64,000 bases of DNA, taken from Vibrio sp. Its GTDB lineage: Bacteria; Pseudomonadota; Gammaproteobacteria; Enterobacterales; Vibrionaceae. Under the pieces are notes generated by a model. The model did no database searches, was not told where the DNA came from, and saw only the letters and a list, made by a program, of their open reading frames with translations. Where the stretch lies: assembly GCA_028131545.1 (NCBI GenBank), contig JAOICL010000005.1, positions 1 through 64,000 on the forward strand, written 5' to 3'. Positions 22,301 through 42,378 of the stretch are shown piece by piece (position 1 is the first letter of the stretch; each line of letters opens with the position of its first letter). A program made the translations under genes and the position numbers.

Positions 22301-22707
22301 AAATCATCCGCGTTATAGGCTTCATACCCCATATAAGAAAGTATGGATTTATCATTGGTAATATCTTCGCTGAAGACAAGATAAATAGGGATGTCATAGC
22401 GAGTAAGAACATTTTTTTTCTTACATTGCTGTTTAATCATCCTTGTAAAATGCTTAATAAGTCGCTTTTTTCTAAGGTTAATTAATAAAGTGTTGTCATC
22501 AATTTTTGGTTTGTTTTTTGATTTAATGAAAAGGTAAAGACCAATTGAGCTTGCTAAAGCAAGGATGAGACTGACACCTAACGTCCACGAGAACCATTGG
22601 TTCAAAGGTGTAAAATAGGCCAACAAGCTACCTGTAATAAGAATGAAGACAAAGAGGCCGAAGGAAAATAATATCGGTTTCACGGTCTTTCCTTGTTTTG
22701 AAGCCAT
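19336..22707 (-). CDS. tssM: T6SS membrane subunit TssM (IcmF/VasK)
   Basis: 1123 aa; two N-terminal TMs, a third near residues 420-440, IcmF-like periplasmic region; position in T6SS operon. Confidence 0.9.
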   Translation of the reverse strand: MASKQGKTVKPILFSFGLFVFILITGSLLAYFTPLNQWFSWTLGVSLILALASSIGLYLFIKSKNKPKIDDNTLLINLRKKRLIKHFTRMIKQQCKKKNVLTRYDIPIYLVFSEDITNDKSILSYMGYEAYNADDFGNDIDFPILFWSSENSICISISTGDDQQPEYVEAIKQCLLKCRPRQAVNGALLLTDVLSLQDSNDTLNLMADHYKLTLLSYNEAFGLNIPIYNIMSNMGSIADFCHYFSAFDETKRDDVFGATTPYNKHGGIDAEWFNKEFDHLIQQLTSNISLSMASQLNQEYRNSIAAAPFQFGLIKQNLWRFFKRLYRSEQLIDGLQFRGFYFTHNIRSIEETDLLATVVNESLGNESYPQNEHIGAQQNLFIQNLPTQVFLQERDIVGVNRRKENFLWFTQLSYTCLLFALLVSTIAVIKLDFNYQSEREERAHTLLDRYKEDIANAPYDIENMSDNIPKLYSLQRIYNLYLQDDPWYILPFMPRSTIKDQVESAYLAELNQVLLPSLQNTLEKDLFVYVNLEDQAKTLSLLNNYRTLFNQNRSNIEELNIYFIEALENQGEADASNVAQLKILLHDVFTENMVPIKANYDLQTLAQKVINQTGIDQLLYEHVMELASQNVRIDIRSELGENFNQLFEFTPGYIGYLVPFLYTPTGFNELNLSVDSDLLKEALTAYEGVTGGVPSTAELYRISRELKKNYQNDYIAFWKEFVANVKLKRLTSTTLLNQHLNLVTLNIKNPLYNYYSVISKFTSPVQMKLEADTKPEDVTPVDIEKKESARQIRLSFESIHQQLEPNEQKIAPIDNLITHFNKVKEWLSAYYESNNPQEMAFLQLSATLPAENPIETLANLTSLNQQDKLSKSVTRDIANQTNRLIINLTKEYLNNEWERMVWTPYEQTIQAYYPFTQESDVDADIADVQLFFKSGGTLDSFYQKNLRSFLKDRDLVPYLPGLIRNSGVRISQNVWNMYDKGKNIQKALFINDPQNVSIEFQIKANEMSPTLTEFQISSSKPIFRYRHGPKLWKKELWKGDDIENDVLQFTMKSQQSLIANQDYSGSWNWLRLLQPHITRTNSDTSFAEFSSGESAVTLLIKTRGKINPFKQDFFTGFNLPPKI

Positions 22708-22738
22708 AAATAAGGTGCTCCTATCCTAAGTGAATGCG

Positions 22739-23896
22739 TTATTTAGAGTTTTTGATGATTAAAGAGCTGACACTTTCATGTGTTTGATACCACTTTTGAA
22801 TGTTATTAGCCTCTTCACGGCTATCGGCACGAATAATAACTCTAAAGTAGGATTTAAATTCTTCAATAGTTGGTCTAAAAGGACTGGTTTTGAGGTTTTC
22901 AACAAATGAAACTGACTCGGATTGTAGATTGAAAGTGGCCAACTGAACTGTCCAAGAAGAGAGAAGCTCGTCATTGGAGATAACAGGAGAGGTGAAGTCT
23001 GATTGTTGTGTCGAAACAAAATCGAGATCCTCGTCATCACTAATGAAAACGATATCAGCCGTTTGATTAGAGAGAACGTATTTCTGGCTATAATCTTCTA
23101 AGAAGACGAAATCTCTTGAACGTTGAGGTAAAGATTGTTGATACCAAAAGTTAGTCACAACAATAGCGGTGCCAACTAAACAGCCAAATATCAAGGTACT
23201 GATAAAAAACTTTTTATGTCGTGTCGGTTTACGTATGGTGGGTAAATTCGTTTTAATATGACTGGTTAATCCACCACTTTGTCGGTATATACTAATCACT
23301 TGCTCAAGTTGATGAGTAATACTTTTAAGGTCATCATTACCAAGATCGCGATATTTCCCTCTAAATCCGATACTTAAAAATATGTAAATGACCTCAAGTA
23401 AATCGACCATTTTTTGTGGTTGGCGTAACGCTTTCTCTGTGACGGTATAAAAAAGTTCGCCCCCATTACGCATGCCAAATAATTCACTGAGTAGCGTTTT
23501 ATTTTCCCATGAAACGTCTTCACCCCATTGTGTATAATTAATGAATTCGTCTAATACTACCGCATACAAAAAACATAATTTATCAATAACAGCGACAGGA
23601 TAGTGAAGTTCATTACCTTTTGCTTTAAGGGAGTTTATTTGATCTTTTAGAATAAAACGAAAATCAGCTAAATTATCAGGCTGAGGAATCGTTTTTATTT
23701 TTAAAATAAGGGCAAGTAACTCGCTACTGATATTCAATAATTGGTTTTCAGCTTTATCAAAATGTTTCAGAAACTCTTTTTGACCTTCTTGAGAATAAGC
23801 TGGGACCGTTAAGAAGGTCGCTCCATTATCAGAAACTTCTATTACTTTTTGTTTATTGCTGTCCCAAGCAATCGTTTCATCATCAAGATAATTCAT
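22739..23896 (-). CDS. tssL: T6SS TssL (DotU/VasF) with C-terminal SPOR-like domain
   Basis: DotU motifs (YAVVLDEFINYTQWG, GELFYTVTEKALRQP, YIFLSIGFRGKYRD), single TM, then SSWTVQLATFNLQSESVSFVENLK...YFRVIIRADSREEANNIQKWYQ resembling SPOR. Confidence 0.88.
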   Translation of the reverse strand: MNYLDDETIAWDSNKQKVIEVSDNGATFLTVPAYSQEGQKEFLKHFDKAENQLLNISSELLALILKIKTIPQPDNLADFRFILKDQINSLKAKGNELHYPVAVIDKLCFLYAVVLDEFINYTQWGEDVSWENKTLLSELFGMRNGGELFYTVTEKALRQPQKMVDLLEVIYIFLSIGFRGKYRDLGNDDLKSITHQLEQVISIYRQSGGLTSHIKTNLPTIRKPTRHKKFFISTLIFGCLVGTAIVVTNFWYQQSLPQRSRDFVFLEDYSQKYVLSNQTADIVFISDDEDLDFVSTQQSDFTSPVISNDELLSSWTVQLATFNLQSESVSFVENLKTSPFRPTIEEFKSYFRVIIRADSREEANNIQKWYQTHESVSSLIIKNSK

Positions 23897-23900
23897 ATGA

Positions 23901-25232
23901 CTACCTTAGGGCGTATAAAACAGCATCGAAGTTTGGAACTCGACTATCGACATGGAGTGCAATAGCATCTCGTGTATTGAGCATTTCTTGCCATGATTTA
24001 TCTGTTGTGTCGACCTCAAAATACGCAGTGCCTTGCATTGGTTTTAATTCGCTAGGTGCGACAGGTAGTGGTGTAAGTTTAACACCTGATAATGCGCTTC
24101 TAACTATCTCAACAATTTTTGAATTACTAGATAGCTTTGCAGATTCAGGGAATACATCTAGCAAATCTGAGACGCTTAACGTTGATTTAACACTTAATAC
24201 GAATCGACGTGTCGCAACGGAATTACTGTCTTTAATCATTGTTCTTAGTAAACGTCGTTTTTCAAATAGCGCATCATCCCAATTGAATTCAATCACTGAA
24301 TCTTGTTGGACAAGAGTCAGCATATTTCTTAAATTAGAAAATAGCGGGTTAAAATTTGAATACAATGAATCTAAGCGAAGAGGTTTTGCATCGGAAGCTA
24401 GTTGAGGCTGCAATGCCTGTAAAGCAGCTTCATAGGTTTTCAATTTTTGATAAATATCATGGGTGGGTACTTTAGGATTTTGTAATGTGATATCAAACCA
24501 AGGTAACCATGAATTCAATGTTTGGAACCACAGGTAATCTTGCATGAGCGACTGAGCACTCTTTTGACCTTGTCCAGCTTCAATACGATTTAAAAGACTG
24601 GTTGCTCGACTGTTTGTCAGTACTTGAATCTCTTTTAATTTTTCTACGATAAATTGAGATGCACCATAATGAAGACAGCTAGGAATAAATGATTTATCTA
24701 ACATAACCTCACCATTTTCACTGCATTCAAGAACCTTAGCGATAGGGACTAACGTAAAGCCAGATACATCTTCATTCTCTAGTTTAATTGAGATGTTTAG
24801 CTGAGCGATGCTGACTTCGACACTGGCATTTTCTGAAGTGGTTGTATCAAAGATATCAATTGACTTAGTGCTGTAACGGCTCTGTGAATTTAAGTCCGAC
24901 GTAAAATCATCATTTCCACGTAAAGAAATAGGAAGGGCTAAGTAAATAACACTATTGACGGTATTATCGGGAATAATACCGACGATATCAGTGGATAAAT
25001 TAAATTGAGTACCATCAGGGAAAATGCCAGAGCATTGGCTTAACACAAATTTACCTATTTTAAGCATATCCGTGTTTATAGAAAATTGTGTTAAACCATA
25101 ATAGGGTGCAATACCAGCTACCGTTTCTATTTGTTTATGTATGTAATTCTCTACATATCGATCTTGTTGCTGAAAGTGTTGTGGGGCGATAAACATACCT
25201 TCTTGCCACACTACTTTTTGATTTGCATCCAT
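23901..25232 (-). CDS. tssK: T6SS baseplate subunit TssK (VasE)
   Basis: MDANQKVVWQEGMFIAPQHFQQQDRYVENY typical TssK N-terminus; start moved to the ATG at 25232. Confidence 0.92.
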   Translation of the reverse strand: MDANQKVVWQEGMFIAPQHFQQQDRYVENYIHKQIETVAGIAPYYGLTQFSINTDMLKIGKFVLSQCSGIFPDGTQFNLSTDIVGIIPDNTVNSVIYLALPISLRGNDDFTSDLNSQSRYSTKSIDIFDTTTSENASVEVSIAQLNISIKLENEDVSGFTLVPIAKVLECSENGEVMLDKSFIPSCLHYGASQFIVEKLKEIQVLTNSRATSLLNRIEAGQGQKSAQSLMQDYLWFQTLNSWLPWFDITLQNPKVPTHDIYQKLKTYEAALQALQPQLASDAKPLRLDSLYSNFNPLFSNLRNMLTLVQQDSVIEFNWDDALFEKRRLLRTMIKDSNSVATRRFVLSVKSTLSVSDLLDVFPESAKLSSNSKIVEIVRSALSGVKLTPLPVAPSELKPMQGTAYFEVDTTDKSWQEMLNTRDAIALHVDSRVPNFDAVLYALR

Positions 25233-25285
25233 GTCTAAACCTTTTAGTTTTCTTTTTATAGGTAATTGATAAGTGTTATGTGTCT

Positions 25286-25777
25286 TTAAAAAATATGCCA
25301 CCAAGGTGACTTTGGTGTAATGACAGCAATATCAATTGTATTTTTATTGATATCTAAAGACAGGTATTGTTCTTCATCATTAGGCACTGACGTGATTGAT
25401 TTTGTTTGGCTGTTTTTAAATTGTGTAAATTCAGCAATAACGGCAATAAACTGTGTTTTTTTATCAATCGAAATCATTTTATCGACTTGGCTATCTGGTA
25501 GGATGATCGGTAATATTTCTTTTGAAATCAGATTATTGGCAAGTAATTCCGCATCATTATTGTAGAGATCAATAAAAGGGATCTGCTTAAAGCTTTGCTG
25601 ATCAGTTAACTGATAGATACGGACTAATATTGGGTTTGCACTGCTTTTCTCACTTGGATTGGAACTCGCATCTGCACTTATGTTTAGAGCATAACTAACA
25701 GATGTTGGTTCAGGTGAGGTACTGCAACCCATCGTTAATGCACTCAACATCAATAGAAATAACAATCTCATTACCAT
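25286..25777 (-). CDS. tssJ: T6SS outer-membrane lipoprotein TssJ (VasD)
   Basis: 163 aa lipoprotein (ALTMGC); NPILVRIYQLTDQQSFKQIPFIDLY typical of TssJ. Confidence 0.9.
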   Translation of the reverse strand: MVMRLLFLLMLSALTMGCSTSPEPTSVSYALNISADASSNPSEKSSANPILVRIYQLTDQQSFKQIPFIDLYNNDAELLANNLISKEILPIILPDSQVDKMISIDKKTQFIAVIAEFTQFKNSQTKSITSVPNDEEQYLSLDINKNTIDIAVITPKSPWWHIF

Positions 25778-26715
25778 TCCTCTTTGTTCTTTTGCATATT
25801 TTCTAAAAATAATGCTTTGAACTGACGGCGATATTCACCATTGTCATATCTATTTTGAAAATGTTTTTTGTATATTCTCCAGTACTTTCTCTGCTTACTT
25901 GTAAATAAACTACTGCCTATGTATTCATCAAATTGACTTTCTAAATAGGTAGGAGACATTTCACTCAAAAACTGTTCTATGGTTTCTTCTAATACATCTA
26001 AAAGCTGTGCATTAGGGATCATAGGGGTGTTATAACTCTGCTGAGAATTTTCAGTAATGGAGACTAACTTATTAATAGAAGCCTCAATCGAGTTAGGGAT
26101 TGGAGATGCAGAGATAAATTCATGTGCTGCACTTTGCTTTTTTATCGGTTCAGGCTTAATCTCATGGATTTCGATATGTTGCTTAACTTCATCAGATTCA
26201 AGGTCTTCAAAAGGGTCGAGAGAAAAAGGGTCATCCGATAGAATATGATTTTGAGAAAATGACTTTTCGTCTTTCGAAGATGGAGTGACATCTTCCGAAT
26301 CAAGGAAATCAAGATCATCGTTATTTACCTCAATGTTAAATTGAGATAGAAATGGGTCATTGTCTGGATCTTCTTTTTTACTATCAACATTCTCTGTTAC
26401 AGCCATGGTTGTAACCAATAAGCTGTATTGTTCTAGCTTAATGATATCGCCGTCTGATATTGGGTATTGTCTTTGATTTGATAATGGCTTGTCATTAAGC
26501 ATCAAAGGGTTCACGCCCATTCCTTGGAATAAATACCCTTGGTCAGATAAAACTATCTTAGCGTGAACACGAGATATACGTTTCTCTTGATCGGGAAGAA
26601 CAACGTCACACTGTGGTGAGCGTCCAATTTCTCCGCCGTTTTGTGGTAAATAGAAAACTCGTGAAGTCACAACCTCATTTTGTGGTACTGAAATGAGATG
26701 AATACTGATTCCCAT
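25771..26715 (-). CDS. tagH: FHA-domain T6SS-associated protein (TagH-like)
   Basis: FHA motif (GEIGRSPQCDVVLPDQEKRISRVHAKIVL) and TagH-like C-terminal region. Confidence 0.87.
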   Translation of the reverse strand: MGISIHLISVPQNEVVTSRVFYLPQNGGEIGRSPQCDVVLPDQEKRISRVHAKIVLSDQGYLFQGMGVNPLMLNDKPLSNQRQYPISDGDIIKLEQYSLLVTTMAVTENVDSKKEDPDNDPFLSQFNIEVNNDDLDFLDSEDVTPSSKDEKSFSQNHILSDDPFSLDPFEDLESDEVKQHIEIHEIKPEPIKKQSAAHEFISASPIPNSIEASINKLVSITENSQQSYNTPMIPNAQLLDVLEETIEQFLSEMSPTYLESQFDEYIGSSLFTSKQRKYWRIYKKHFQNRYDNGEYRRQFKALFLENMQKNKEEW

Positions 26716-26718: not shown

Positions 26719-27480
26719 CTATCCTTCGCATTGTATGACTGCTTTATTGAAGCTGGTTAGAAAGCCGGTGTATTTTTGGAGAAACCGGTTTGAAAAATAT
26801 ACGCCCATATCTTTATTTTCAACATTAGTCGAACGGAAGTAGTCATTAGGTAACTCTGCGTTCTTAAGTTCAGATTTAAAGACAAGCTCATCTTCTAAAG
26901 CAACATCAATTTCCCTTTGTTTTAGAAGCTTTAATAATACTTTAGCATCTCGAGGCTGTTTGACGACATTAAAACCATGACGCTTTAACCAAAACCACTT
27001 ACTTGACCCAAATTTAGCTGAAAACTTAAGTTTAACTTTACTTAATTCATCTACCTTAGCTTGTACTCCAGGTCCGAAGTACCAGTTAAGCTTTTGTTGA
27101 GCTATGGTCGTTGATAATGTTGCATATTCATCTCTTTCTTGAGTTTTTGTTGCGACGAAGAATCCATGATGTGCACCACTATGAACTTTTAATTGAGCAT
27201 TAGACCATTTAGTCATCGTAATCTGATAGGGTTGCCCCATGTTACCTAACGCACATTTTACTTTGTCTAATGCGATGCCAAACATATCGCCATCATTGTG
27301 CACCTGATAGGGAGCCCATGCTTGGGTGGTTAGTAATAATCGATTAGGACCATTAGCTGCATAAGTTGATGAACTAAATGCTGTTAAGGCTAAAATAAGA
27401 CACATCGATATAGGTAGATCATTAGAAATAATCCGGTTCACTATGTTGTTTGAGTGACGTTTGTGATGTTTTATCATCAT
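26719..27480 (-). CDS. Extracellular solute-binding protein family 3-like
   Basis: 253 aa; signal peptide; LLTTQAWAPYQVHNDGDMFGIALDKVKCAL..., typical SBP_bac_3 N-terminus. Confidence 0.75.
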   Translation of the reverse strand: MMIKHHKRHSNNIVNRIISNDLPISMCLILALTAFSSSTYAANGPNRLLLTTQAWAPYQVHNDGDMFGIALDKVKCALGNMGQPYQITMTKWSNAQLKVHSGAHHGFFVATKTQERDEYATLSTTIAQQKLNWYFGPGVQAKVDELSKVKLKFSAKFGSSKWFWLKRHGFNVVKQPRDAKVLLKLLKQREIDVALEDELVFKSELKNAELPNDYFRSTNVENKDMGVYFSNRFLQKYTGFLTSFNKAVIQCEG

Positions 27481-28499
27481 TGGTTATCTCCAATGAGTTC
27501 CGACATTTTAAGAATAGAAACAGGAGGGTAGTAATCTAACTTTTTTGCAGCATTCATATTAACAATATAGGAATACTCACTCATGGCTTCAATCGGGATA
27601 TCTTTAACATTAATGTGATCAAATAGAATTTGCTTCGCTTTATAACCAGCAAATTGGCCAACATTGTAATAACGACTTACTATACCCAATAGAGCATTAT
27701 TTTTTCTTATTGGACTTTCAGTGGCTGAGAAGGTCATTAAATTGGCATCGTGTATTTGACTCACGATAACTTTACTATTCGAAATCACAAAAGAGTCTGG
27801 TGGTAAGTAAACCAGGTCAATATTATCCTCTTTCATTCTTTTTAAGTTCGACTGAAGGGAGCTAATATCAGGTTTTCCATCGGTAATTGAAAATGGATAT
27901 AAATGAACTCTCATTTTATGTTTGAAAGAATTTAAATGTAACTTATTTGCAGTAATGACAGAATTGTCTTCTTGAGGATTGAACAAAACCCCAATTTTTT
28001 TCACATGATTTAATTGTTTAATCGCTTTCAGCTGTACGGTATGAGGAACGATGTGGCTGACACCGGTGAAGTTTCTTGAGTGCTCATTTTTATCGCCAAC
28101 CAGCTTAGAGCCGACCGGATCAGTAACAATACTAAATACACTTGGAGTGCTTCCATTTAAGCTAAATTCTGTTGGGTTATACTCGGTTCCAATTAATGTA
28201 CGGGTGACAGTGGTACCAAAGGTATATACGAGATCAGGTTGTATCGTGTTGAGTGCTTTAATATTCGCATTGAGTTTATTTTTGTCTTTCTCAGCATCTA
28301 AATAAACAAATTTAACATTCCCCGTTCTATTGAGGTAATCCATAAATCCTCTTTCTGCGTCAGTAATACCACGCCAAAGAAGTAATGCGACGGTTTTCTG
28401 ATCTTCATCCGTTGCTGTAGATGCTAAAGCCAGTGTTGGAGAGAACAGTGTATTTAAAATAAAACTTAAGGTAATAAGTTGTTTGATTAATGTTGACAT
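27477..28499 (-). CDS. ABC-type substrate-binding protein (TrpX/PF04392-like)
   Basis: 340 aa; signal peptide; TVALLLWRGITDAERGF...IQPDLVYTFGTTVTRTLIGT...KKIGVLFNPQEDNSVIT. Confidence 0.8.
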   Translation of the reverse strand: MSTLIKQLITLSFILNTLFSPTLALASTATDEDQKTVALLLWRGITDAERGFMDYLNRTGNVKFVYLDAEKDKNKLNANIKALNTIQPDLVYTFGTTVTRTLIGTEYNPTEFSLNGSTPSVFSIVTDPVGSKLVGDKNEHSRNFTGVSHIVPHTVQLKAIKQLNHVKKIGVLFNPQEDNSVITANKLHLNSFKHKMRVHLYPFSITDGKPDISSLQSNLKRMKEDNIDLVYLPPDSFVISNSKVIVSQIHDANLMTFSATESPIRKNNALLGIVSRYYNVGQFAGYKAKQILFDHINVKDIPIEAMSEYSYIVNMNAAKKLDYYPPVSILKMSELIGDNQ

Positions 28500-28500: not shown

Positions 28501-31044
28501 TTAAGCCTCCGCTACGCGCTTATCCATGCGCGTAAACACGGTATATGAAAAGAGAAGAATGATTGAGCTTATAAATAGGATCACACCAAAGATGATGATC
28601 GTTTCGTTATAACTGAATGTACTCAGTAAAATCCCCGCTAATATAGGGCCAGTAATATTACCAATACGTTCTGTTAACCTAAAGATCCCAATGATTTTAC
28701 CTCTTTCAATGCCTTGATTACTCATTAGGTCAATGACAAGAGGGATTTGAGGCGAAACGCAGATACCATGTGCGATACCGACAAAAATAACAATTAAGAG
28801 TACGCCAGAAGTTCCATCTAAAAAGTAGACATTTAACATGGCAATAGACGAAATTAAACCACCTAAAACAATGAAGGCAATTTTGTTTTTGAACTTATCA
28901 ACGAGTGCAGCACTTATAGGAGCAATTAAAATAATAGCGAGTCCATAAGTCATGATGACGCGACCAGAAACAGAGCTACTTTCTCCCATATCTTGCAGGT
29001 ACACTGGGCAAATATAGTATAAAAATCCAGTTAAAATAATTTTGGCCGGAATAGCGCTAAACAAAGTGATGAGTGCAAAATATTTGTTTTTTAGTAATAT
29101 TTTAAAATCTTGTAGTTTAACTGGTTGTCCTACCGTCTCACTTTGTTTGCTTTCGAAGAAGGAAGCGATTAATAGTACCCCTAATAAAGCCAGTAACCCC
29201 GATAGTATAAATGTCGGGGCGTAACCGAGTTTGTCTGCAAGAATACCCCCAATAGCAGCACCACAAAGTGAACCTGAGAAAAAGGATGAAAGGAATGTCG
29301 CCATACCTTTTGTACGATTTTTATCGGTAGTTGTATCCGATACATATCCCTGAGCTGAGATGAAGACAATACCGTATCCAACCGCAGTAATTGCTCTGGT
29401 TAATAATAATATTTCTATATTCGTAACAAAGGCAGTGATAGTAAGACCTATTGCGGTAATAATACCACCGGTCATTAGAGAGAAACGACGTCCTACTTTA
29501 TCTGACCAGTAACCAGCAAAAGGTAAAGAAATAGCCCAACACAGCATGAATAAAGAAATCGGCAAACTGGTAATTAAACTTTGTGGAATGATGTTCGACA
29601 TTGAATCAAGATTTGAAACATAATGCGGGAAAAAGGCTAAAGAAGCCGCTTCAGCGAATACTAATAGAAATAGAGGTAATCGAATGAATCGATAATCTTG
29701 ATTATCAAGCAACGTAGTCTTTTTTGACTTAGCTGCACTGCTCACAAGGTTATTGATGTTTTGTGTGAGCGCACTTATTTCATCTTTGGAACGAATTGCC
29801 GCAGTATGCAATCCAACAGTTAAATTATCCTTGGATAACAAACGTTTAATTTGTTGTAATGGGGATAAAATCATATATTGGCATAAAAATAAAATGATTT
29901 CGGTTACTACAAGACATGATGTGATTAAGACCGTAATCATATCCATTAAACTATCTTCAAGAATGTTACCGATGATATTACCATCAGTCGCGATTTTTAA
30001 TTCTATTGCAGAATCTGGAGATAAAACTAATGAACTTGTCTGTTTTAAATCTTCAGTACTGGAACCAGGCGAATACGTATAAATGGAGTCTTTATTTTGA
30101 TTTAAGCTGATGGCTAATAATTCTTCGTGCCTATCGACGTAGAAAGCAAACTCACTCTCTAAGCCATTTAATCGTTCAATCGGTACACCATTATCAACGA
30201 GGCGATCGATCATCGTGGATAGCGCATCACCAATTAAATGGGATTTTTGTTCGAGTTTCGGTTCATATACCTTTGAAAAAGCATGCAGCGATTGATATGA
30301 AGCACCGAAATTGGCCACAATAGTAAGAACTATAGCAAGAGTGATAATGAAGAAAGGGTAATGCTTCGTTCTTATTTTTCTTTTATGCTGAGTTTGTTGA
30401 GCATTAAAAGCCTCTTGAGTTTCTTCAAATATATTAAACACATTCGCGCCATTGGTTTGAAATTGTTCCGAAGCAGAACGGGCGGTATTTATTCGAGTGA
30501 GGATATTATTTAAAAAAAAGCGAAGTATAATAAAGCCAAATAGGGCACAGCCCGTTACCCAAATAGTCGCATACAATATTTGCTTTTCTAATAGAGCTAA
30601 TTGACTTTCGTACAAGGCTTTCGGTGAGTAATGAAGCTGTAATTTACCTTCATTTAAACCAAAAGTATTCGTAATAGGGAGGGAGATCTCTCGATTATCG
30701 GGTTCTATCTCACCGGTTGAAAATAAAACCTGATTATTCATATCCACAACAGATAAGGATGTGATTCCAGAAACAAGCTGAATACGTCTGTCTAATAAAG
30801 ATTGAATGTTATTAATAGAAGCTAAGGGTAAACCGAGGTTTATCGCTTGCTGTATATCATTTTGAGTTTCCTCAACCACAATTTGATAAGTTGAATCACT
30901 GGTTTCAGTGAGTCTCTTTTCAAAATTAAGATAATTGAGGGTCGTATTGAGCCCAATCGAAAAGAGTAAAACAGCTACGATAGCGAGCGATAATTTGGCA
31001 CGTAGTGATAAAGAAACTTTAACTGCTTGTTCTTTTAATTCCAT
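28501..31044 (-). CDS. Sensor-HAMP-MFS transporter fusion
   Basis: 847 aa; TM-periplasmic-TM, second TM-periplasmic-TM, HAMP-like linker (ILSPLQQIKRLLS...RSKDEISALTQNINNLV), then a ~12-TM MFS domain with motif A (GYWSDKVGRRFSLMTG). Confidence 0.8.
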   Translation of the reverse strand: MELKEQAVKVSLSLRAKLSLAIVAVLLFSIGLNTTLNYLNFEKRLTETSDSTYQIVVEETQNDIQQAINLGLPLASINNIQSLLDRRIQLVSGITSLSVVDMNNQVLFSTGEIEPDNREISLPITNTFGLNEGKLQLHYSPKALYESQLALLEKQILYATIWVTGCALFGFIILRFFLNNILTRINTARSASEQFQTNGANVFNIFEETQEAFNAQQTQHKRKIRTKHYPFFIITLAIVLTIVANFGASYQSLHAFSKVYEPKLEQKSHLIGDALSTMIDRLVDNGVPIERLNGLESEFAFYVDRHEELLAISLNQNKDSIYTYSPGSSTEDLKQTSSLVLSPDSAIELKIATDGNIIGNILEDSLMDMITVLITSCLVVTEIILFLCQYMILSPLQQIKRLLSKDNLTVGLHTAAIRSKDEISALTQNINNLVSSAAKSKKTTLLDNQDYRFIRLPLFLLVFAEAASLAFFPHYVSNLDSMSNIIPQSLITSLPISLFMLCWAISLPFAGYWSDKVGRRFSLMTGGIITAIGLTITAFVTNIEILLLTRAITAVGYGIVFISAQGYVSDTTTDKNRTKGMATFLSSFFSGSLCGAAIGGILADKLGYAPTFILSGLLALLGVLLIASFFESKQSETVGQPVKLQDFKILLKNKYFALITLFSAIPAKIILTGFLYYICPVYLQDMGESSSVSGRVIMTYGLAIILIAPISAALVDKFKNKIAFIVLGGLISSIAMLNVYFLDGTSGVLLIVIFVGIAHGICVSPQIPLVIDLMSNQGIERGKIIGIFRLTERIGNITGPILAGILLSTFSYNETIIIFGVILFISSIILLFSYTVFTRMDKRVAEA

Positions 31045-31073: not shown

Positions 31074-33677
31074 TTATTGAATGGTTAACTCAAAATCTTC
31101 TTTGGAAGAGCTTGAGCTGACTTCAACATGCGTGATAGGTTCTTCTCTACTTAGCCTCAGGATGCATTCCTCAGCAAGCCTTGGCATCAAAGAGCGGTTG
31201 ATAATTTGTTCAACAGCACGCCCACCTGTGGTTGGATCCGTATTTTTACTGACAACATAATCAATAAAATTCGAATCCCAAGTGAAACTTGCCTGATATT
31301 GCTCGGCAATCTTTTTCTTAATCCGATTTAACGATATTTCAGTAATCTTACCTAACTCTTCATCATTGAGTGGGTAATAAGGAACAACAGTAGTACGGCC
31401 TAAAAATGCAGGTTTAAAGTATTGCTGTAAATCCGGACGAATTTTTTCAAGCAATTCATTGTTGTCTAGGCGTACATCATTATCATCACAAACGTCACAT
31501 ATTGCTTGGTCTGCTGCATTAGACGTCATAATTATTATAGTATTCTTAAAGTCTACCGTACGGCCTTCGCTATCTTTAATGTGTCCTTTATCAAAAATTT
31601 GATAAAAGAGGTCATGAACACCGGGGTGTGCTTTTTCCATTTCGTCTAATAATAGAACAGAATACGGATTACGGCGGATAGCTTCTGTTAGAACTCCCCC
31701 TTCACCAAAACCAACATACCCAGCAGGTGAACCCAGAAGCATAGAAATTTTATGTTCTTCTTTGAATTCCGTCATGTTGATAACAGTTAGGTCATTGCTA
31801 CCACCATAAAGTTGCTCCGCTAATGCCATGGCTGTTTCTGTTTTACCAACACCACTTGGGCCACACATAAGAAAAACACCTATGGGTTTACGTCCATCGG
31901 TTAATCCCGCTCGTGAAATGCGAATAGCTTTAGCAAGCTCTTGTTTAGCAACATTTTGACCAATGACACGTTGGTTCAATTGATCCTCAAGTGATAATAG
32001 CTTTTTAATCTCATCACTCATCATGCTACCAACAGGGATGCCAGTCCAATTAGAGATAACTTGAGCAATCGTTGCGTCATCTACCATGGCATTGACTAAG
32101 GGGTCTTCATTTTGAAGTTTGGTAAGCTGATCGAGCAGTGAGTTCATTTCACTCTGTTTATTCGTATCAACGGTTTCTTCTTCGGAAAGCCCCATAATTT
32201 CAGATTGTAATGACTTAATTTGCTCAACAAGTTTGATTTCTTCTTTCCATCGACTGTTATAGGCAACGAGTTTTTCTTCGTTAGCGGCAATGGTCTTTTC
32301 CAGTTCAGAAATAGGATCTTCCCGATGACCAAATAAAGCTTGTTCTTTTTCTAGAGCAACTTTTTCATTTTTTTCATAACGAATGGTTTGTTCAAGAGAT
32401 TCAATCACCTCTGGCTTTGCACCTTGAGTTAATGCAATACGGGCACTGGCGGTATCTAATAGGCTAATGGCTTTATCAGGCAATTGACGGCTTGGCAGAT
32501 AACGGATCGATAAATTGACTGATGCTTCGATAGCTGATTCTGCAATATAAGCACCATGGTGTTTTTGAAGTGATGCAGCAACACCACGAAGCATTTGCAT
32601 CGCATCTTCAGCATTCGGTTCTTCAATAGTGACAATTTGGAAGCGACGAGTGAGTGCTGGATCCTTCTCGAAATATTTTTTGTATTCAGCCCAAGTTGTT
32701 GCAGCAATGGTTTTAAATTCACCACGAGCTAGTGCTGGTTTTAATAAGTTAGCCGCATCATTTTGCCCGGCTGCACCGCCTGCACCGATGAGAGTATGGG
32801 CTTCATCGATAAAAACAATAATGGGCTTCTCTGAATTCTTAACTTCATTGATGACATCTTTTAAGCGGTTTTCGAATTCACCTTTAACACTCGCACCGGC
32901 TTGTAATAAACCCAAGTCTAATGAGTGTATTTGTACGCCTTGTAATGCAGAAGGCACTTCATCGGCTGCAATGCGTAATGCCAAGCCTTCAACAACAGCA
33001 GTTTTACCAACACCAGGTTCACCAACCATAATTGGGTTGTTTTGTCTTTTACGACAAAGTATATCGATGGCTTTTCTTACTTCTGAATTACGGCCTGATA
33101 TTGGGTCAATATTTCCGTCAATGGCTTCTTGGGTAAGGTTAATCGTATATTTACTTAATGCATCGTTGCCAGTGGGTGATTGGCCACTAGACGCTTCACC
33201 CGTTTGTGCTGTTGCAACAGACGCCTGTTGGATAAAACCTTGTAACGATTCAATGGAAATGTCTTTTAAGGTCTCGTAAGGAGTGGTACTAACACCTAAT
33301 ACATTCTGCTGAAGTAAGGCATGAACAAGGTGTAAGCTAATGATTTCACCATGTGCATAGTTAACGGAGGCTAGCATCCAAGCATCTTTAGCTAATTCAG
33401 TGAGTTCATGACTCAACGTTGGCTGACCTTCACTACCTCGTGGTAAACGAGTTAAGCGATTGGTGAGCTCAGCTACAAATTGCTCTTGTGGTATTTTTTG
33501 ACTGTTGAGAAGAGCGAGTAATTCCTTATCGTTTTGTGATATTAACTGTAAAAGCCAATGTTCAATTTCGATTGCTGCTACACCTTGATTCATTGCAGCG
33601 CCAGCTGAAACCTCTAAGGCTTTTTTCAAATCAAGAGAGAGTTTTCCAACAAGTTTCGTGAGGGTCACTTGAGCCAT
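31074..33677 (-). CDS. clpV: T6SS AAA+ ATPase ClpV/TssH
   Basis: 867 aa; two Walker A/B ATPase modules (GEPGVGKTAVVEGLA; GPSGVGKTETAMALAEQLYGG) and ClpV N-domain. Confidence 0.95.
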   Translation of the reverse strand: MAQVTLTKLVGKLSLDLKKALEVSAGAAMNQGVAAIEIEHWLLQLISQNDKELLALLNSQKIPQEQFVAELTNRLTRLPRGSEGQPTLSHELTELAKDAWMLASVNYAHGEIISLHLVHALLQQNVLGVSTTPYETLKDISIESLQGFIQQASVATAQTGEASSGQSPTGNDALSKYTINLTQEAIDGNIDPISGRNSEVRKAIDILCRKRQNNPIMVGEPGVGKTAVVEGLALRIAADEVPSALQGVQIHSLDLGLLQAGASVKGEFENRLKDVINEVKNSEKPIIVFIDEAHTLIGAGGAAGQNDAANLLKPALARGEFKTIAATTWAEYKKYFEKDPALTRRFQIVTIEEPNAEDAMQMLRGVAASLQKHHGAYIAESAIEASVNLSIRYLPSRQLPDKAISLLDTASARIALTQGAKPEVIESLEQTIRYEKNEKVALEKEQALFGHREDPISELEKTIAANEEKLVAYNSRWKEEIKLVEQIKSLQSEIMGLSEEETVDTNKQSEMNSLLDQLTKLQNEDPLVNAMVDDATIAQVISNWTGIPVGSMMSDEIKKLLSLEDQLNQRVIGQNVAKQELAKAIRISRAGLTDGRKPIGVFLMCGPSGVGKTETAMALAEQLYGGSNDLTVINMTEFKEEHKISMLLGSPAGYVGFGEGGVLTEAIRRNPYSVLLLDEMEKAHPGVHDLFYQIFDKGHIKDSEGRTVDFKNTIIIMTSNAADQAICDVCDDNDVRLDNNELLEKIRPDLQQYFKPAFLGRTTVVPYYPLNDEELGKITEISLNRIKKKIAEQYQASFTWDSNFIDYVVSKNTDPTTGGRAVEQIINRSLMPRLAEECILRLSREEPITHVEVSSSSSKEDFELTIQ

Positions 33678-33710: not shown

Positions 33711-34664
33711 TTACTTCAGAAGTAGTTTCATCATTTTCTCTGGTTGCCTTTCGGGTGATAAGCAATCCACTTCGCCTAAGTGTGCAGCTACATAAGCATT
33801 ACTCGAGAGCATCGGTTGCTTAATGTAACTGCGTTTAACATTAAGATAGATAAAAATTGGAGTATTATCACGGGTAAATAATTGAATAAGTTCTCTAATT
33901 TTATTTCCAATATGCGCATCGGTTTGTATCTGTGTTAACTCGTTCGCATTTTTAGGAGTGATAGTGATATTAAGTCGACTAAAAAAGGTGAGACACGTTT
34001 TGCCAAGTAAGAAACCATGTCCAATCGAATTATTACCTGATTCGTGATAACGTAATTGTGTCAGAGAATCTCGAGGGAGTTGTTTTCGTTCATGAAATAA
34101 GCAGTTTACGTCGATTTCATAGCAAAAGTAATCATTCAAAACACGCTTTAATACATTGATATTTCTTGTTTTTTGACTTAACAGAAGCGTGTATTGAAAA
34201 TAATCATCTTGATCGGCGGATAAAGCACCTAAATTGAGCAACCGTTTAATTTTATCGGGTACTCTTTCATTTTCTAAAATTAACCACTTACGAGTTTCTA
34301 AAAGATGCATCATTTCTAGATGTCGATGATTGAATACATCGAGAAAGTCACGGAGTGCATTATTTTCTTGGTGTATCGCGCTAAGCATTTCTTCGTAAAT
34401 ATAACTGGGTACGACACCATAAATGCCAGAGAGTGCTTGTTTCGCTATGGTTAGCTGAATATATCTTGGTTGTTGCTCTATATTGGTAATGTCGCTGATT
34501 AAACCATAGGGCATAGCTTCCGCTTTTAAACGTATATCGGCACTTGGGCTTTGTATCCCAAGTGCTTTTTGTTGTTTAGATAAAGAATGTAATAAGCGAA
34601 TGGCTTGAGTAAAATCATAGTGTTTATGATTTTTGGCTAAATCTTGTAATACATTCATAAGCAA
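33711..34664 (-). CDS. tssG: T6SS baseplate subunit TssG
   Basis: 317 aa; YDFTQAIRLLHSL start; VPSYIYEEML; typical TssG position and motifs. Confidence 0.9.
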   Translation of the reverse strand: MLMNVLQDLAKNHKHYDFTQAIRLLHSLSKQQKALGIQSPSADIRLKAEAMPYGLISDITNIEQQPRYIQLTIAKQALSGIYGVVPSYIYEEMLSAIHQENNALRDFLDVFNHRHLEMMHLLETRKWLILENERVPDKIKRLLNLGALSADQDDYFQYTLLLSQKTRNINVLKRVLNDYFCYEIDVNCLFHERKQLPRDSLTQLRYHESGNNSIGHGFLLGKTCLTFFSRLNITITPKNANELTQIQTDAHIGNKIRELIQLFTRDNTPIFIYLNVKRSYIKQPMLSSNAYVAAHLGEVDCLSPERQPEKMMKLLLK

Positions 34665-36406
34665 AGGGTGCTTCCATGGATCTTAGGAAAAGTTTTAATA
34701 AAGCCATCACGACCATATTGTTTAATTTTGAGTTGAATAAAGCGGTCAAAACTACAAAATTGTTGGAAAAATGTATTTAAGACTTCAGCAAAGGCGTGAA
34801 AAGAGTGGTGAGTGTCCAATGTAATAATGACTTCGGTTCCTGTCGCAAAAACATTCGTATTTAATGTTCTAAATGAAGCAACTTGTGAGCGAAATTGAAC
34901 GTCTTTGATGGCCTTGACTTCCGGTGCATTGATCTGAGGTCGAATACATAATGCGAGCATTTGTTTAAGGTGTTGCGTTTTATCATCTGCTTGCATTATT
35001 GAGCTTAAGTTCGCATTAAGTAAACCAATAAATTGCCAATGTAAATTATGTTCAATTTCATGAGGAATAGGAGCTGATGGTAGGTATATTGGAGCAAGAT
35101 CAGAAGGTAAGTCGATAGGCTCAAGACACTCAAGAGTAGAATCTAACTGACAAGCTTGTTTACCATTTGAACACAGTAATCGAGTTCCAAAAAGCTGATT
35201 AAACTCTATATGTTCTGATTGTTGAGATTTACTTATAACAAGATGATGTTGGCCATCAGAACTTTTTTTAGATTGCCAGGTATCGGCACGTTGCGAGGCA
35301 TATTTTTGTTTGAATAAAGGGGTTAACGGTTTTTCACCGTTAGGAGTAACTTCAAACACAGAGAGAATGTCAATGATTTCACAAGGGTGGTCGGAGTGGC
35401 TGTCAGCGTTAACCGGCATCGATAAAGTACGCTCATCATAGCTAATTGGCTCACCTATTTGTTCAAAAAGATTGATTGCGGGAACCACATTTAATCGAAA
35501 TACATTATGATCAAATAAACGGATAAATTCTGATGGAATCGATCCCATGAATAAATTGATTTTAATCTCATCCGAATGGCATTTTTGTAAGGCTTTATCA
35601 AAGTTATCTATATAGAAGAATTGTTTTTTTTCTTTAAAAGAGAAAAACTCAGTAAGGAGATCAAATCCAAGAAATTCATTTCCATGATGGGGTAAATAGG
35701 TGAATGAAGGATCACTAATTCTATTTTTAAGTTGATCTTTTTTTAGAGGAATATGATGTGTGTATTCAGGGTCACTGATAGTAATACATTGTGTATTACT
35801 CAATAGTAATTCAACTAAAGAATCGGCGTTGTTTTCGAAACCTTGTACATAGAAATGGAAGGCCTCAGTCGATAAATGAGAAAAATGAACGTCAGGATCA
35901 CCTGTTTTTAATGTCAGTTGAATAATACCATTACTGTGCTCGGTGTTTTTAGGACGATTAAAACCAAATGGGGCACTGAGTGCTTGTGTATCACTAAGAG
36001 AGTAAGGCTCAATGCTAAAATCACATACGGTTTGAAATTGACAATCATTACTTTCAATGGAACCGTTAAAACGACTTTGTTTGGGAATGTTAATTCTTTC
36101 AGCTGGGGCGTCTTTGGTATTCAACGCTAAATATGCAACACTTGGAATGGTTTGAAGGTAACTTGGATACAGAACTTTTAATAAACCAGCCAAAACTTCT
36201 GGTAATTGATCATTAAGTTGTTTTTGAGTATTCGCATTTAAATAAGCAACGCCATCTAACAATCGTGCTAGGCTAGGATCTTCGATCTGACCTTGATGAA
36301 TGTTAAGATCTTCAGCTTCAGATGGATAGTCTTTGCTGTAACGCCCAAGAGATCGCTTTACAACGGCTAGTTCCTGTTCGTAATAGCGTAATATAGGATC
36401 AGTCAT
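34655..36406 (-). CDS. tssF: T6SS baseplate subunit TssF
   Basis: MTDPILRYYEQELAVVKRSLGRYSKDYPSEAEDL...DPSLARLLDGVAYLNANTQKQLND; start moved to the ATG at 36406. Confidence 0.93.
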   Translation of the reverse strand: MTDPILRYYEQELAVVKRSLGRYSKDYPSEAEDLNIHQGQIEDPSLARLLDGVAYLNANTQKQLNDQLPEVLAGLLKVLYPSYLQTIPSVAYLALNTKDAPAERINIPKQSRFNGSIESNDCQFQTVCDFSIEPYSLSDTQALSAPFGFNRPKNTEHSNGIIQLTLKTGDPDVHFSHLSTEAFHFYVQGFENNADSLVELLLSNTQCITISDPEYTHHIPLKKDQLKNRISDPSFTYLPHHGNEFLGFDLLTEFFSFKEKKQFFYIDNFDKALQKCHSDEIKINLFMGSIPSEFIRLFDHNVFRLNVVPAINLFEQIGEPISYDERTLSMPVNADSHSDHPCEIIDILSVFEVTPNGEKPLTPLFKQKYASQRADTWQSKKSSDGQHHLVISKSQQSEHIEFNQLFGTRLLCSNGKQACQLDSTLECLEPIDLPSDLAPIYLPSAPIPHEIEHNLHWQFIGLLNANLSSIMQADDKTQHLKQMLALCIRPQINAPEVKAIKDVQFRSQVASFRTLNTNVFATGTEVIITLDTHHSFHAFAEVLNTFFQQFCSFDRFIQLKIKQYGRDGFIKTFPKIHGSTLCL

Positions 36407-36836
36407 AGTTTTCTTCCTCCACTGAAGATGTGAAATCACTTAAAGCAATTCTGGAATCAAAGTTCAGTTCTTGAAGGCCAAAATCATCTTGGTAATGGGC
36501 TGAAATACTGAAATGAAGCGCATTTTGACCTTCTTTATGCTCATGTAAAATCACTTGGATATCTTGTAATCTAGGTTCAAAATTTTCAATCCAGCCTTTA
36601 ATTTTTATCGCGAGCTGTGAGCGATCTAAACTGGCGCTTAAAAGTTGAACATCTTCAACACCAAAATTAATAATAGAACGGTTAACTTCGGTTAATCGGT
36701 AGTCCTTTGCGATTAATGGGACTTCTGCTTCGAATAACTTGGATAAATGGTACTGAATATCATGAATTTTTAACTTAGGCTCAGAACCAAGTGTATTAAC
36801 TTCTTTAGACTGACAAAATGTTTTCCAAAAACTCAT
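36399..36836 (-). CDS. tssE: T6SS baseplate subunit TssE (gp25-like)
   Basis: 145 aa gp25-like; INFGVEDVQLLSASLDRSQLAIKIKGWIENFEPRLQDIQV. Confidence 0.9.
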   Translation of the reverse strand: MSFWKTFCQSKEVNTLGSEPKLKIHDIQYHLSKLFEAEVPLIAKDYRLTEVNRSIINFGVEDVQLLSASLDRSQLAIKIKGWIENFEPRLQDIQVILHEHKEGQNALHFSISAHYQDDFGLQELNFDSRIALSDFTSSVEEENYD

Positions 36837-36859
36837 GATAATGATTCCAACAGCTGTGA

Positions 36860-38245
36860 TTAAGCTTCTTCAATCTCGGTAGATAAAACTACTTCACCGT
36901 TAAAGTGATCAAATTGGTATTGTGGAACAATACGTAACGTACAGGCATAGGTTCCTGGCGAATGTTCAGATTCAGTAATAACAATTTTAGCGTGTCGAAG
37001 AGGGTATTTGGCGAGTGTTTCTTCGTCAGCATTGGTTACGTTACTTGCATATCGTTCAATCCATTCAGTCAGCATGACTTCACATTCTCGAGCGGTATAA
37101 GAACTCCCTAATAAATCCCTAACTTTCACTTTTAAATAATGTGCAATACGACATGACATGAGTGTCGTTTGTATCTGAGTTAATACTTTATCATTATCAT
37201 TGGTTCCAGCTAACCAAGCAGAGTTATTACCATTAAAGTAATATTTATTGGTTAATGGACTTAACGTTAAGGGTATGAAACCCTGTTGGCTATAAAATGT
37301 AGATAGCTGCCCAGATAAATTAATATTTGTAATAGGGGAGGTGAGGAAGTTATCTGAATGCAGGTTCGGAACATTAATCACGGCACCTTGGTATTTTTCA
37401 CTCCAACGAGACTTAAGAAAACCAAACCAATTCACACGCTGGTATTCACGCATAATGGTTGCTAGGAAAGGAAAGATAGAACTTCCCCACAAACCATCGC
37501 CTTCTTCATTATAAACAAAGCCAGCAGCATAATTTTTATATTGTTTTCTTACCAATATAAAAGGCAAAGTTAAAGCAATGAATTTAGAGCTGGTTTGTTT
37601 TCTTAAATTTTGTAATGACTCATAATCAGGGCCTTGAAGTATTTTTTCTATTCGAGTGGTATCTGATAACCAATCTGCTCCAGATTCGACAAAAAAAGAT
37701 GGGCTTGGTGTTAAAACCATCGGACACAGTGTGCTTTCTCCTAGCTTACCGATGAGCTCTAATGTAAACAAATCGTCGTAATCGGAATCAAAATCCATAT
37801 CTAGAGAGATAGGTTGTGTAAAACCAATGCAGCCAAAGGGCTGACCACCGGCTTGATTCAACTCTTTATTACCAATTTTGTTATAGAGCTTGGATGACTT
37901 AATTGAATAAGCTTGGTTTAAGTCAGAGGACACCTCTTCCCAACTTGCATTCAGGAGTTTTAACTTAACGCGTTGATAATTGATTGGTAAGTGAGCAATG
38001 GCCGATAAACTAAGCCAATTTCGATGTAAAGATCGAAAGTCAGTGTGATGAATAATGGCATCAACCTGTTGGGATAGTTGCTTATCTATTTGAGCGATAA
38101 GGTTAAGAATTTTACATTTCAGCAGTTGTTCAGATTTAAGAAAAGAAGAATCATAATCAAACAATAAAGATAATGCCTCGCGTAGGAATTCATTATCTTT
38201 ATTGTCTAGTTCAAGGAGAGAATTTAATAGATCAGTATACTGCAT
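36860..38245 (-). CDS. Second TssC-like sheath protein (divergent tandem paralogue)
   Basis: 461 aa; TssC/EvpB-like architecture: FRSLHRNWLSLSAI, SKLYNKIGNKELNQAGGQPFGCIGF, SCRIAHYLKVKVRDLLGS; adjacent to canonical tssC. Confidence 0.82.
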   Translation of the reverse strand: MQYTDLLNSLLELDNKDNEFLREALSLLFDYDSSFLKSEQLLKCKILNLIAQIDKQLSQQVDAIIHHTDFRSLHRNWLSLSAIAHLPINYQRVKLKLLNASWEEVSSDLNQAYSIKSSKLYNKIGNKELNQAGGQPFGCIGFTQPISLDMDFDSDYDDLFTLELIGKLGESTLCPMVLTPSPSFFVESGADWLSDTTRIEKILQGPDYESLQNLRKQTSSKFIALTLPFILVRKQYKNYAAGFVYNEEGDGLWGSSIFPFLATIMREYQRVNWFGFLKSRWSEKYQGAVINVPNLHSDNFLTSPITNINLSGQLSTFYSQQGFIPLTLSPLTNKYYFNGNNSAWLAGTNDNDKVLTQIQTTLMSCRIAHYLKVKVRDLLGSSYTARECEVMLTEWIERYASNVTNADEETLAKYPLRHAKIVITESEHSPGTYACTLRIVPQYQFDHFNGEVVLSTEIEEA

Positions 38246-38257
38246 AGAGATAAAATA

Positions 38258-38275
38258 GGCCGGGCGGAGCCGGCC
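38258..38275 (-). promoter_or_regulatory. GC-rich intergenic hairpin between tssC and the tssC-like gene
   Basis: GGCCGGGCGGAGCCGGCC (minus strand GGCCGGCTCCGCCCGGCC followed by TATTTTATC) in an AT-rich operon. Confidence 0.55.
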
Positions 38276-38313
38276 ATACCTATATTAATGATATCGATGA
38301 AGATTGATGTGGT

Positions 38314-39798
38314 TTAACCAGGGATCTTAGCAACCATGCGAACAGAGGTTGTTAATTCTTCTAATTGTAACCATGGACGTAAGTGAGCTACAGCGGAATA
38401 AGCACCTGGCTTACCTGGCTGCTCAACCACTTCAATACGAGATTCACATAGCGGTGTTTTTGCTCTTTGCTCATTACCAATAGCACCTGAGTTGGTATAT
38501 TGGTCAATCCAAAGTTGTAATTCACGTTTGATATCTGGAGCTTCTAGGTTAGAACCTAACTTATCTCGTCCCATTACTTTAAGGTAATGTGCGATACGTC
38601 CACTCGCCATAATGTAAGGTAAACGAGCAGAGATAGCTGCGTTCGCTGTTGCATCTGGGTCTGTGAATGTTTTTGGCTTCTGAGCTGTTTGACCGCCAAT
38701 AAAGACACCGTAGTTCGTGTTTTTATAGTGAACTAAAGGTAAGAATCCTAGATCGCTCAGCTCTTTTTCACGCTCATCAGTCAGGTTAACTTCAATTGGG
38801 CATTGTTGAACAAGATCGCCAGCTTCAGTTTTGTAAGTTAGGTTTGGTAAGTTTTCTACTTTACCGCCATTGTCTAAACCACGGATAGCAGTACACCAAC
38901 CAGAAGCCGTATAAGATTGACTCATTTTCAGGCCAAGATCATAAGCGGCATTTGACCAAACGATTTCATCATTATTTTTAGGATTTGGATTACCATCCAT
39001 ATCCACGTCAAGCTCTTCGTATTCGAAAAGGTCGGTACCTAAACCTTTAGCTCCGTATGGCATACGAGCCATTGTACGTGGAAGTGTTAGGGTCACATAT
39101 CGAGCATCATCACTTTCTCGGAATGAATTCCAAGCCGCATAGGCAGGTGAATCAAAACCTGCAGCAACCGGTTTATTTTCATTGAAAGTCGTAAAATCAT
39201 TAAACTCGAACATTTCTGCATTCGCGGCAGCAACAAAAGGTGCGTGACATGCTGCTGCAACTTCACCCATGTAGCGCATTAACGCAACATCTTCATCGCT
39301 AGCACTGAATTCGTAGTCACCAATGAATGTTCCATAGGGCTCACCACCTGCAGTACCAAATTCACCTTGATAAACAGCATTAAATAGTGGACTACGGTCA
39401 ATAGCAGGAGCATCTTCAAACTGCTCTAAAAGCTCTTCTTTCGTATAATCAACCATTTTGATTTTTAAAGAAGGACCTAATTCACTTTCTTTAACCATTT
39501 TTTGTAGACCACGCCAAGAACCTTCTAGTTTTTGGAAGTCATCTTGTTGCATTACAGCTGAGAGCTGTTTGGATAATTTCTTATCAATTTCAGCTATGGC
39601 ATTCTCAATCGTTTTCGTAACATTTTTATCCCACGTTACGGTACCAGAGAGAGCTTGTTGAGTTAAAACGGAGAATAACTCTTTTGTCGTGTCGGCAGGT
39701 GTTTGAGTTGTGGCCTCAATCGCTCTATCAAGAAAACTAAGGCTCTCACCTTCACCTTCAGCGGCGGTTTGTGTTTGATTTTCAGCTTCAGTGCTCAT
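38314..39798 (-). CDS. tssC: T6SS contractile sheath large subunit TssC (VipB)
   Basis: 494 aa; FQKLEGSWRGLQKMV, FNAVYQGEFGTAGGEPYGTFIGDYEF, SGRIAHYLKVMGRDKLGS. Confidence 0.96.
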   Translation of the reverse strand: MSTEAENQTQTAAEGEGESLSFLDRAIEATTQTPADTTKELFSVLTQQALSGTVTWDKNVTKTIENAIAEIDKKLSKQLSAVMQQDDFQKLEGSWRGLQKMVKESELGPSLKIKMVDYTKEELLEQFEDAPAIDRSPLFNAVYQGEFGTAGGEPYGTFIGDYEFSASDEDVALMRYMGEVAAACHAPFVAAANAEMFEFNDFTTFNENKPVAAGFDSPAYAAWNSFRESDDARYVTLTLPRTMARMPYGAKGLGTDLFEYEELDVDMDGNPNPKNNDEIVWSNAAYDLGLKMSQSYTASGWCTAIRGLDNGGKVENLPNLTYKTEAGDLVQQCPIEVNLTDEREKELSDLGFLPLVHYKNTNYGVFIGGQTAQKPKTFTDPDATANAAISARLPYIMASGRIAHYLKVMGRDKLGSNLEAPDIKRELQLWIDQYTNSGAIGNEQRAKTPLCESRIEVVEQPGKPGAYSAVAHLRPWLQLEELTTSVRMVAKIPG

Positions 39799-40304: not shown

Positions 40305-40331
40305 AGTGAATCTCCTTATATGTGAGTGCTA

Positions 40332-40856: not shown

Positions 40857-40915
40857 AATGACTCTCCTTCATATAAGTCGGGTTTATACCATTGTCTCTA
40901 GAAGTAGGACTATTA

Positions 40916-42322: not shown

Positions 42323-42378
42323 AGCTAATCCATTACATAACTTCAAAAATTACAATAGCTTACTGTTTGAAGTGTTAT

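Follow-up and report, generated by a model that had tools for sequence, protein, structure and literature searches.

In a Vibrio sp. genome, one gene of a type VI secretion system (T6SS) operon encodes an 847-residue protein in which two periplasmic sensor units and a HAMP-like linker run into a transporter domain of the major facilitator superfamily (MFS); the operon lies in a stretch of 64,000 nucleotides (assembly GCA_028131545.1, contig JAOICL010000005.1, positions 1 to 64,000), hereafter referred to as the window. Gene order and tree comparisons identify as the constant, co-evolving partner of this sensor-MFS protein the product of the next gene, a periplasmic binding protein of the ABC_sub_bind family (PF04392), a relationship absent from the initial annotation of this DNA, which had been made from the letters alone. 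We interpret the two genes, with moderate confidence, as a unit encoding a binding-protein-partnered, sensor-gated MFS carrier, for which export is more likely than import.

A constant pair and its repeated association with T6SS operons

In a sample of 197 Vibrio genomes, searched at a threshold of E 1e-25 or better, a relative of the sensor-MFS protein was found in 58 genomes, corresponding to 60 loci once fragments of broken genes, and contigs occurring more than once, had been merged. The initial annotation had placed the gene inside a T6SS operon and had proposed that T6SS clusters be surveyed for its co-occurrence; when the context of all 60 loci was read, 57 were indeed within T6SS operons, so that the Vibrio homologues are far from being always outside such clusters. 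The 34 loci of clade A, whose proteins are orthologues sharing 47-61% identity with the window protein across the genus, always display the order tssH, sensor-MFS, ABC_sub_bind, SBP3 (a second periplasmic binding-like protein) and FHA. Clade B (9 loci) opens the T6SS operon, in the order sensor1, sensor2-MFS, ABC_sub_bind, VgrG, and clade C (14 loci) has the order tssH, ATP-grasp, sensor-MFS, ABC_sub_bind, SBP3, FHA. The other three Vibrio loci (L104, L105, L120) are outside T6SS operons and nonetheless contain an ABC_sub_bind gene.

All 57 Vibrio T6SS loci, and almost all loci elsewhere, have an ABC_sub_bind gene next to the sensor-MFS gene, and no ATP-binding cassette (ABC) permease or ATPase was noted beside this binding-protein gene in the loci whose context was read. 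Outside T6SS operons, 17 adjoining ABC_sub_bind proteins cluster together, and others occur in L046 (by annotation), L147, L148, L150, L151 and L152; the exceptions are L124, where none is visible and the sequence ends near the gene, and L149, which has no clear one. A binding-protein gene constantly linked to a carrier gene, as in a binding-protein-dependent transporter, is therefore what we observe. The MFS-core and ABC_sub_bind trees also have their main groups in common: clade A with L122; clade B with L104, L105, L120 and L127; clade C with L036, L123, L125 and L126; and a group of L032, L034, L042, L046 and L047. The distances within the two families are correlated (Mantel r 0.78 for 36 loci, and 0.67 for 18 loci with one representative per T6SS clade) and 0 of 5000 permutations reached the observed value, although the permutation ignores relatedness and thus demonstrates joint descent more than direct contact. 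In the window, a single nucleotide separates the stop codon of the sensor-MFS gene from the start codon of the ABC_sub_bind gene, which the SBP3 gene overlaps by 4 nucleotides; such spacing suggests that the three genes are probably co-translated.

The T6SS members are split into three clades interspersed with non-T6SS members, and a single clade for all of them is rejected by approximately unbiased tests (p 2e-136 for the MFS core and 4e-38 for ABC_sub_bind, values to be taken with caution given the long branches). On these trees, the pair has joined T6SS operons on three or more separate occasions, unless it left and re-entered them. With SBP3 as bait, sister T6SSs devoid of the pair were located: in five operons of the same subtype (L128-L132), with about 90% identity in TssC, tssH is directly followed by SBP3. 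The pair is also missing from L134, and L136 has the ATP-grasp gene without the pair. No intact T6SS with only one member of the pair was seen among the T6SS loci examined. Since the two genes are present or absent together, the pair is, as far as gene content can tell, an optional accessory cassette, with SBP3 the steadier part. A core component would be present in all T6SSs of a type, and we rejected the idea of a T6SS-specific part because same-type sister systems lack the pair. The suggestion in the initial annotation that the gene might be tied to T6SS firing fares poorly for the same reason, and because homologues outside T6SS operons are found beside other outputs; any effect of the pair on firing would be hypothetical.

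Two side observations concern these loci. All examined T6SSs of this type retain SBP3, including those without the pair, and 68 of the 197 Vibrio genomes have a relative of it; it may be a fixed accessory of these systems. The sensor-MFS gene is broken into two frames in L093 (G670) and L103 (G713), where the adjoining T6SS genes look intact.

At the thresholds used, matches were obtained in 19 of 296 genomes sampled from the order, 8 of 369 from the class and 10 of 349 from the phylum, counts that come from samples including the genus of the window itself and are not frequencies. The non-T6SS homologues are spread over several families and phyla, and plasmid records with relatives come from Azospirillum, Aureimonas and Nitratidesulfovibrio, as well as from V. 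crassostreae (p2) and V. gigantis. No relative was found in viral and phage collections, and a single-protein search of genome contigs retrieved one generic MFS protein only. The Nitratidesulfovibrio vulgaris plasmid (L050) carries both ABC_sub_bind and sensor-MFS genes; its type III secretion island also holds STAS and ATP-binding partner-switch genes.

Architecture of the sensor-MFS protein

The initial annotation had described a gene at 28501-31044 with two transmembrane (TM)-periplasmic-TM units, a HAMP-like linker and an MFS domain, and an open reading frame is present at exactly these coordinates. Its features are as follows.

28501..31044 (-): sensor-HAMP-MFS gene, open reading frame of 847 residues
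30946..30999 (-): TM1, opening sensor unit 1, about residues 16-33 (hydropathy averaged over 34 orthologues)
30577..30945 (-): periplasmic loop 1 of sensor unit 1, about residues 34-156 (hydropathy and unit homology)
30511..30576 (-): TM2, about residues 157-178 (averaged hydropathy)
30358..30510 (-): cytoplasmic linker 1, about residues 179-229 (weak conservation, without HAMP signature)
30301..30357 (-): TM3, about residues 230-248 (averaged hydropathy)
29944..30300 (-): periplasmic loop 2 of sensor unit 2, about residues 249-367 (homologous to unit 1)
29875..29943 (-): TM4, about residues 368-390 (averaged hydropathy)
29719..29874 (-): HAMP-like linker, about residues 391-442 (Pfam E 0.024 in the window protein, and the clade A signature)
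28525..29679 (-): MFS domain, about residues 456-840 (motif A, motif B arginine, TM5 glycine motif, intramembrane charges)

Averaged over the 34 orthologues, hydropathy places the TM segments ahead of the MFS block near residues 27, 165, 238 and 379 and delimits two periplasmic loops of about 120 residues each in the N-terminal half. MFS proteins have a cytoplasmic N terminus, with which this even number of preceding TM segments is consistent. The two TM-loop-TM units are homologous to each other (hhalign probability 97.7%, E 2e-12 over 147 columns, A5 versus A4), a relationship that looked weak with clade A alone and became clear once diverse rows were used in the alignments; judged by this homology, the double sensor arose by tandem duplication. 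Clade B has sensor unit 1 as a separate gene of 238-289 codons directly upstream (split in L031, L043 and L096-L103). The description of the sensor as chemoreceptor-like finds no such backing: the N-terminal half of the window protein matches no Pfam family in a whole-protein scan, the loops have no counterpart among Pfam Cache/PDC models or PDB chains, and sCache_3_2 gives a weak match (E 0.048) in one relative only. MCPsignal has no match in the window protein, whose C-terminal part is the MFS domain, leaving no chemoreceptor signalling hairpin.

The HAMP assignment is probable, with restrictions. PF00672 is the sole Pfam match of the window linker, at E 0.024 and 15.4 bits, below the cut-off of 25; it is better in relatives (E 8.9e-5 in L030; E 1.6e-5 and 25.6 bits, above the cut-off, in L122) and strongest in the Azospirillum locus L044 (E 7.9e-11 and 42.6 bits, also above the cut-off). 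The signature P-x(about 26)-D-E-[ILF]-G is maintained in clade A, whereas the linker is missing in clade C. By these profile matches the HAMP reading is probably right, yet the domain is divergent in the window protein and not universal in the family, to which it is non-essential.

The MFS domain is unambiguous, as the initial annotation had it: PF07690 (MFS_1) covers residues 459-777 with E 6.8e-48 and 163.8 bits against a cut-off of 33.4, and motif A between the second and third TM helices of the domain reads GYWSDKVGRR, being intact in clade A and degenerate in clade C. Among 73 members, E465 (TM1 of the MFS domain, as for the following), R550 (TM4), K668 (TM7), E792/R793 (TM11) and two glycines of TM5 are 88-100% conserved, the motif B arginine R550 reaching 99%; TM5 itself reads GSLCGAAIGG, in which the glycines of motif C are retained and its proline is absent. 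In close pairs, the MFS half has a ratio of nonsynonymous to synonymous substitution rates (dN/dS) of 0.007-0.023, similar to that of TssH (0.01-0.027), and the sensor half one of 0.02-0.075, all rough values since synonymous sites are partly saturated. Because the intramembrane charges are kept and dN/dS is very low, the domain is probably a working transporter, and a dead carrier is disfavored on the same grounds. The best matches of the MFS core are DHA1-type exporters among solved chains (PDB) and several MFS families in NCBIfam; its nearest solved and curated relatives include NorA, VMAT, MdtG and Bcr.

Proposed mechanism and alternatives

The neighbors of the pair in relatives give a hint of what it handles. 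ATP-grasp/D-Ala-D-Ala-ligase-like enzymes are found in clade C and in L036, L044, L148 and L150, a diaminopimelate (DAP)-epimerase-like enzyme in L032 and L033, and a GCS2 ligase in L047. Signal-output genes are also present: SpoIIE with an RsbW-like ATPase (L034, L151) or SpoIIE (L047, L152), an adenylate/guanylate cyclase (L122, L123), a hybrid histidine kinase (L032, L044) and GGDEF-EAL proteins (L033, L148, L150). Together with the exporter-like MFS domain, these makers of amino-acid-like products and nearby outputs favor a unit that both transports a small amino-acid-type molecule and responds to it, on an argument that is qualitative. Metallophore export was considered for L032 and L033 on account of the DAP-epimerase-like gene, but these loci showed no further recognizable gene for such a pathway.

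In the mechanism that we propose, the ABC_sub_bind protein would be exported to the periplasm, bind a small ligand and dock on its partner's two sensor units; the TM helices would then shift, and the HAMP-like linker would transmit this movement to the N terminus of the MFS domain, thereby gating the carrier. The latter would most likely be a proton-coupled DHA1-type carrier exporting a small amino-acid- or dipeptide-like molecule. Having been acquired at least three times by vibrio T6SS operons, the unit would be made whenever the T6SS is made, as an accessory rather than a machine part, presumably with some benefit to the T6SS-bearing cell. Its repeated entry into these operons suggests, short of proof, a new mode by which a transporter is gated by an outside signal. 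Several points weigh against this interpretation. Periplasmic binding proteins ordinarily serve uptake, and the conserved TM charges leave the direction of transport unfixed. Congruent trees reflect joint descent, not contact, and AlphaFold run without homologues gave no trustworthy structure (pLDDT 37 for the whole protein, 45 for loop 1). The absence of HAMP and the degenerate motif A in clade C mean that the gate varies within the family. A ligase gene is lacking in the window operon, so that the argument for export of a product depends on relatives, and L104, L105 and L120 have no recognized signalling or enzyme neighbor.

The most serious alternative, which we nevertheless find rather doubtful, is a transceptor: the MFS and binding proteins would be the ligand-sensing input of a signalling complex whose output is a partner protein (FHA and kinase-like proteins in T6SS operons; SpoIIE phosphatase, cyclase, hybrid kinase or GGDEF-EAL elsewhere), transport being secondary. 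The output genes beside non-T6SS homologues, the presence of HAMP and paired sensor units, which are signalling parts, and the degenerate motif A of clade C are what such a device would have. However, many of the adjoining kinases, cyclases and phosphatases have their own Cache or HAMP sensors, the intramembrane charges and selection on the MFS half indicate real transport, and same-type T6SSs occur without the pair. Binding-protein-dependent uptake of a nutrient or cofactor, for instance from T6SS-lysed cells, with the sensor units as docking sites, is unlikely. It would agree with the usual role of periplasmic binding proteins, established for ABC and TRAP (tripartite ATP-independent periplasmic) systems, and a T6SS setting might suit scavenging from killed neighbors; however, no catabolic genes occur among the T6SS genes, the closest MFS relatives are mostly exporters, and ligase and epimerase neighbors suggest synthesis rather than breakdown. 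Finally, an ordinary drug-efflux MFS protein with decorative N-terminal units, functionally independent of binding protein and T6SS alike, as the dispensability of the pair and the two broken Vibrio copies might suggest, is highly improbable given the identical position in all 34 clade A loci despite 47-61% identity to the window protein, the three or more separate T6SS associations, the congruent partner trees and the strong purifying selection.

We put forward as a tentative possibility a class of binding-protein-dependent, signal-gated MFS carriers, in which a binding protein gates from outside through tandem sensors and a HAMP relay, a self-made amino-acid-type signal is exported or sensed, and the outputs vary between T6SS, SpoIIE partner switching, cyclic AMP, cyclic di-GMP and phosphorelay.

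Two further observations were made beside non-T6SS homologues. A family of 479-595 residues, with no Pfam match and an invariant A-N-H-x-G motif, adjoins several of these sensor-MFS genes:

L032:7644-9236
L033:7714-9351
L034:9647-11089
L042:5511-6950
L046:10415-12202

In L151 (11859-14664), a second sensor-1 gene is followed by a gene for a 675-residue protein weakly similar to the sensor-MFS family and without Pfam match, perhaps a degenerate copy beside the intact one.

Described systems and the surrounding operon

HAMP and paired sensor units usually drive kinases, cyclases or chemoreceptors; here they run directly into a transporter. The protein shares with DHA1-type H+ antiporters (NorA, MdtG, Bcr/CflA, VMAT) the MFS core, the TM4 motif B arginine, the TM1 acidic residue and a motif C-like TM5 glycine motif, and to our knowledge no such antiporter has tandem periplasmic sensor units, HAMP or a partner binding protein. 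As in TRAP and tripartite tricarboxylate (TTT) transporters, a periplasmic binding protein and a non-ATP-driven carrier are encoded in one operon, but here the membrane part is an MFS protein, the binding protein belongs to PF04392 and docking would take place on the sensor units. In LuxPQ-type receptors a binding protein docks on a periplasmic membrane sensor, the output being a histidine kinase and not, as here, a transporter. The SLC5/STAC histidine kinases (CbrA, CrbS, RpuS) also combine a transporter domain and a signalling part in one polypeptide (PMC9100948), but with the transporter first and a kinase output, whereas in the present protein the transporter is C-terminal, preceded by sensor and HAMP, and there is no kinase. 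Open-licence papers yielded no description of an MFS protein with such a front end or a dedicated binding protein, although this does not prove that none exists. If correct, a co-evolving binding protein would add the MFS to the carriers served by binding proteins (ABC, TRAP, TTT), and in vibrios a small molecule would be moved or sensed specifically upon T6SS production.

We compared the published Vibrio clusters VflT6SS1, V. proteolyticus T6SS2/T6SS3 and V. splendidus VS_1337-VS_1318. In the latter, VS_1324/VS_1325, beside clpB VS_1326, are missing in V. fluvialis and V. furnissii, and the left junction of VflT6SS1 has an MFS gene and an ABC periplasmic component (PMC5371669). Such gene differences are recorded without explanation in published maps (PMC5666596, PMC5371669); judged from their position, the mapped genes would belong to the sensor-MFS/ABC_sub_bind family, which would make sense of the variation in gene content from clpV to fha. 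In the published Vibrio cluster papers, we found no account of the sensor-HAMP-MFS architecture or of the conserved pairing. V. parahaemolyticus T6SS2 was rejected as a published equivalent, having no transporter among the listed genes VPA1024-VPA1046. Matched natural T6SSs with and without the pair, together with the split genes of clade B, make the question directly testable.

In the window, T6SS genes are identified on both sides of the pair, the sensor-MFS gene being located between tssH/clpV and the ABC_sub_bind gene, as the initial annotation had recognized.

33711..45661 (-): upstream T6SS genes, TssG, TssF, TssE, second TssC, TssC, TssB, Hcp, TssA, PAAR, DUF6931, VgrG
31074..33677 (-): TssH/ClpV
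27477..28499 (-): ABC_sub_bind (PF04392) binding protein, 340 residues, signal-peptide-like N terminus
26719..27480 (-): SBP3, second periplasmic binding-like protein, SBP_bac_3-like (E 0.0018)
18614..26715 (-): downstream T6SS genes, FHA, TssJ, TssK, TssL, TssM, short protein-kinase-like gene

Hcp, the two TssC, TssF, TssG, TssH, TssJ, TssK, TssL, TssM, TssA, VgrG and FHA were called by Pfam/NCBIfam, and TssB, TssE and PAAR were assigned through their syntenic counterparts in annotated clusters. The second TssC/VipB-like sheath gene (36860-38245), beside the main tssC, is conserved in all related clusters. TssL (DotU; 22739-23896) has a C-terminal SPOR domain (E 3.7e-4), and the last gene of the operon (18614-19339) encodes a protein-kinase-like product of 241 residues, in which the kinase profile is matched over its later part only. 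The DUF6931 protein (43014-43592) and the PAAR-type protein (gene at 42524) adjoin VgrG and recur in related clusters.
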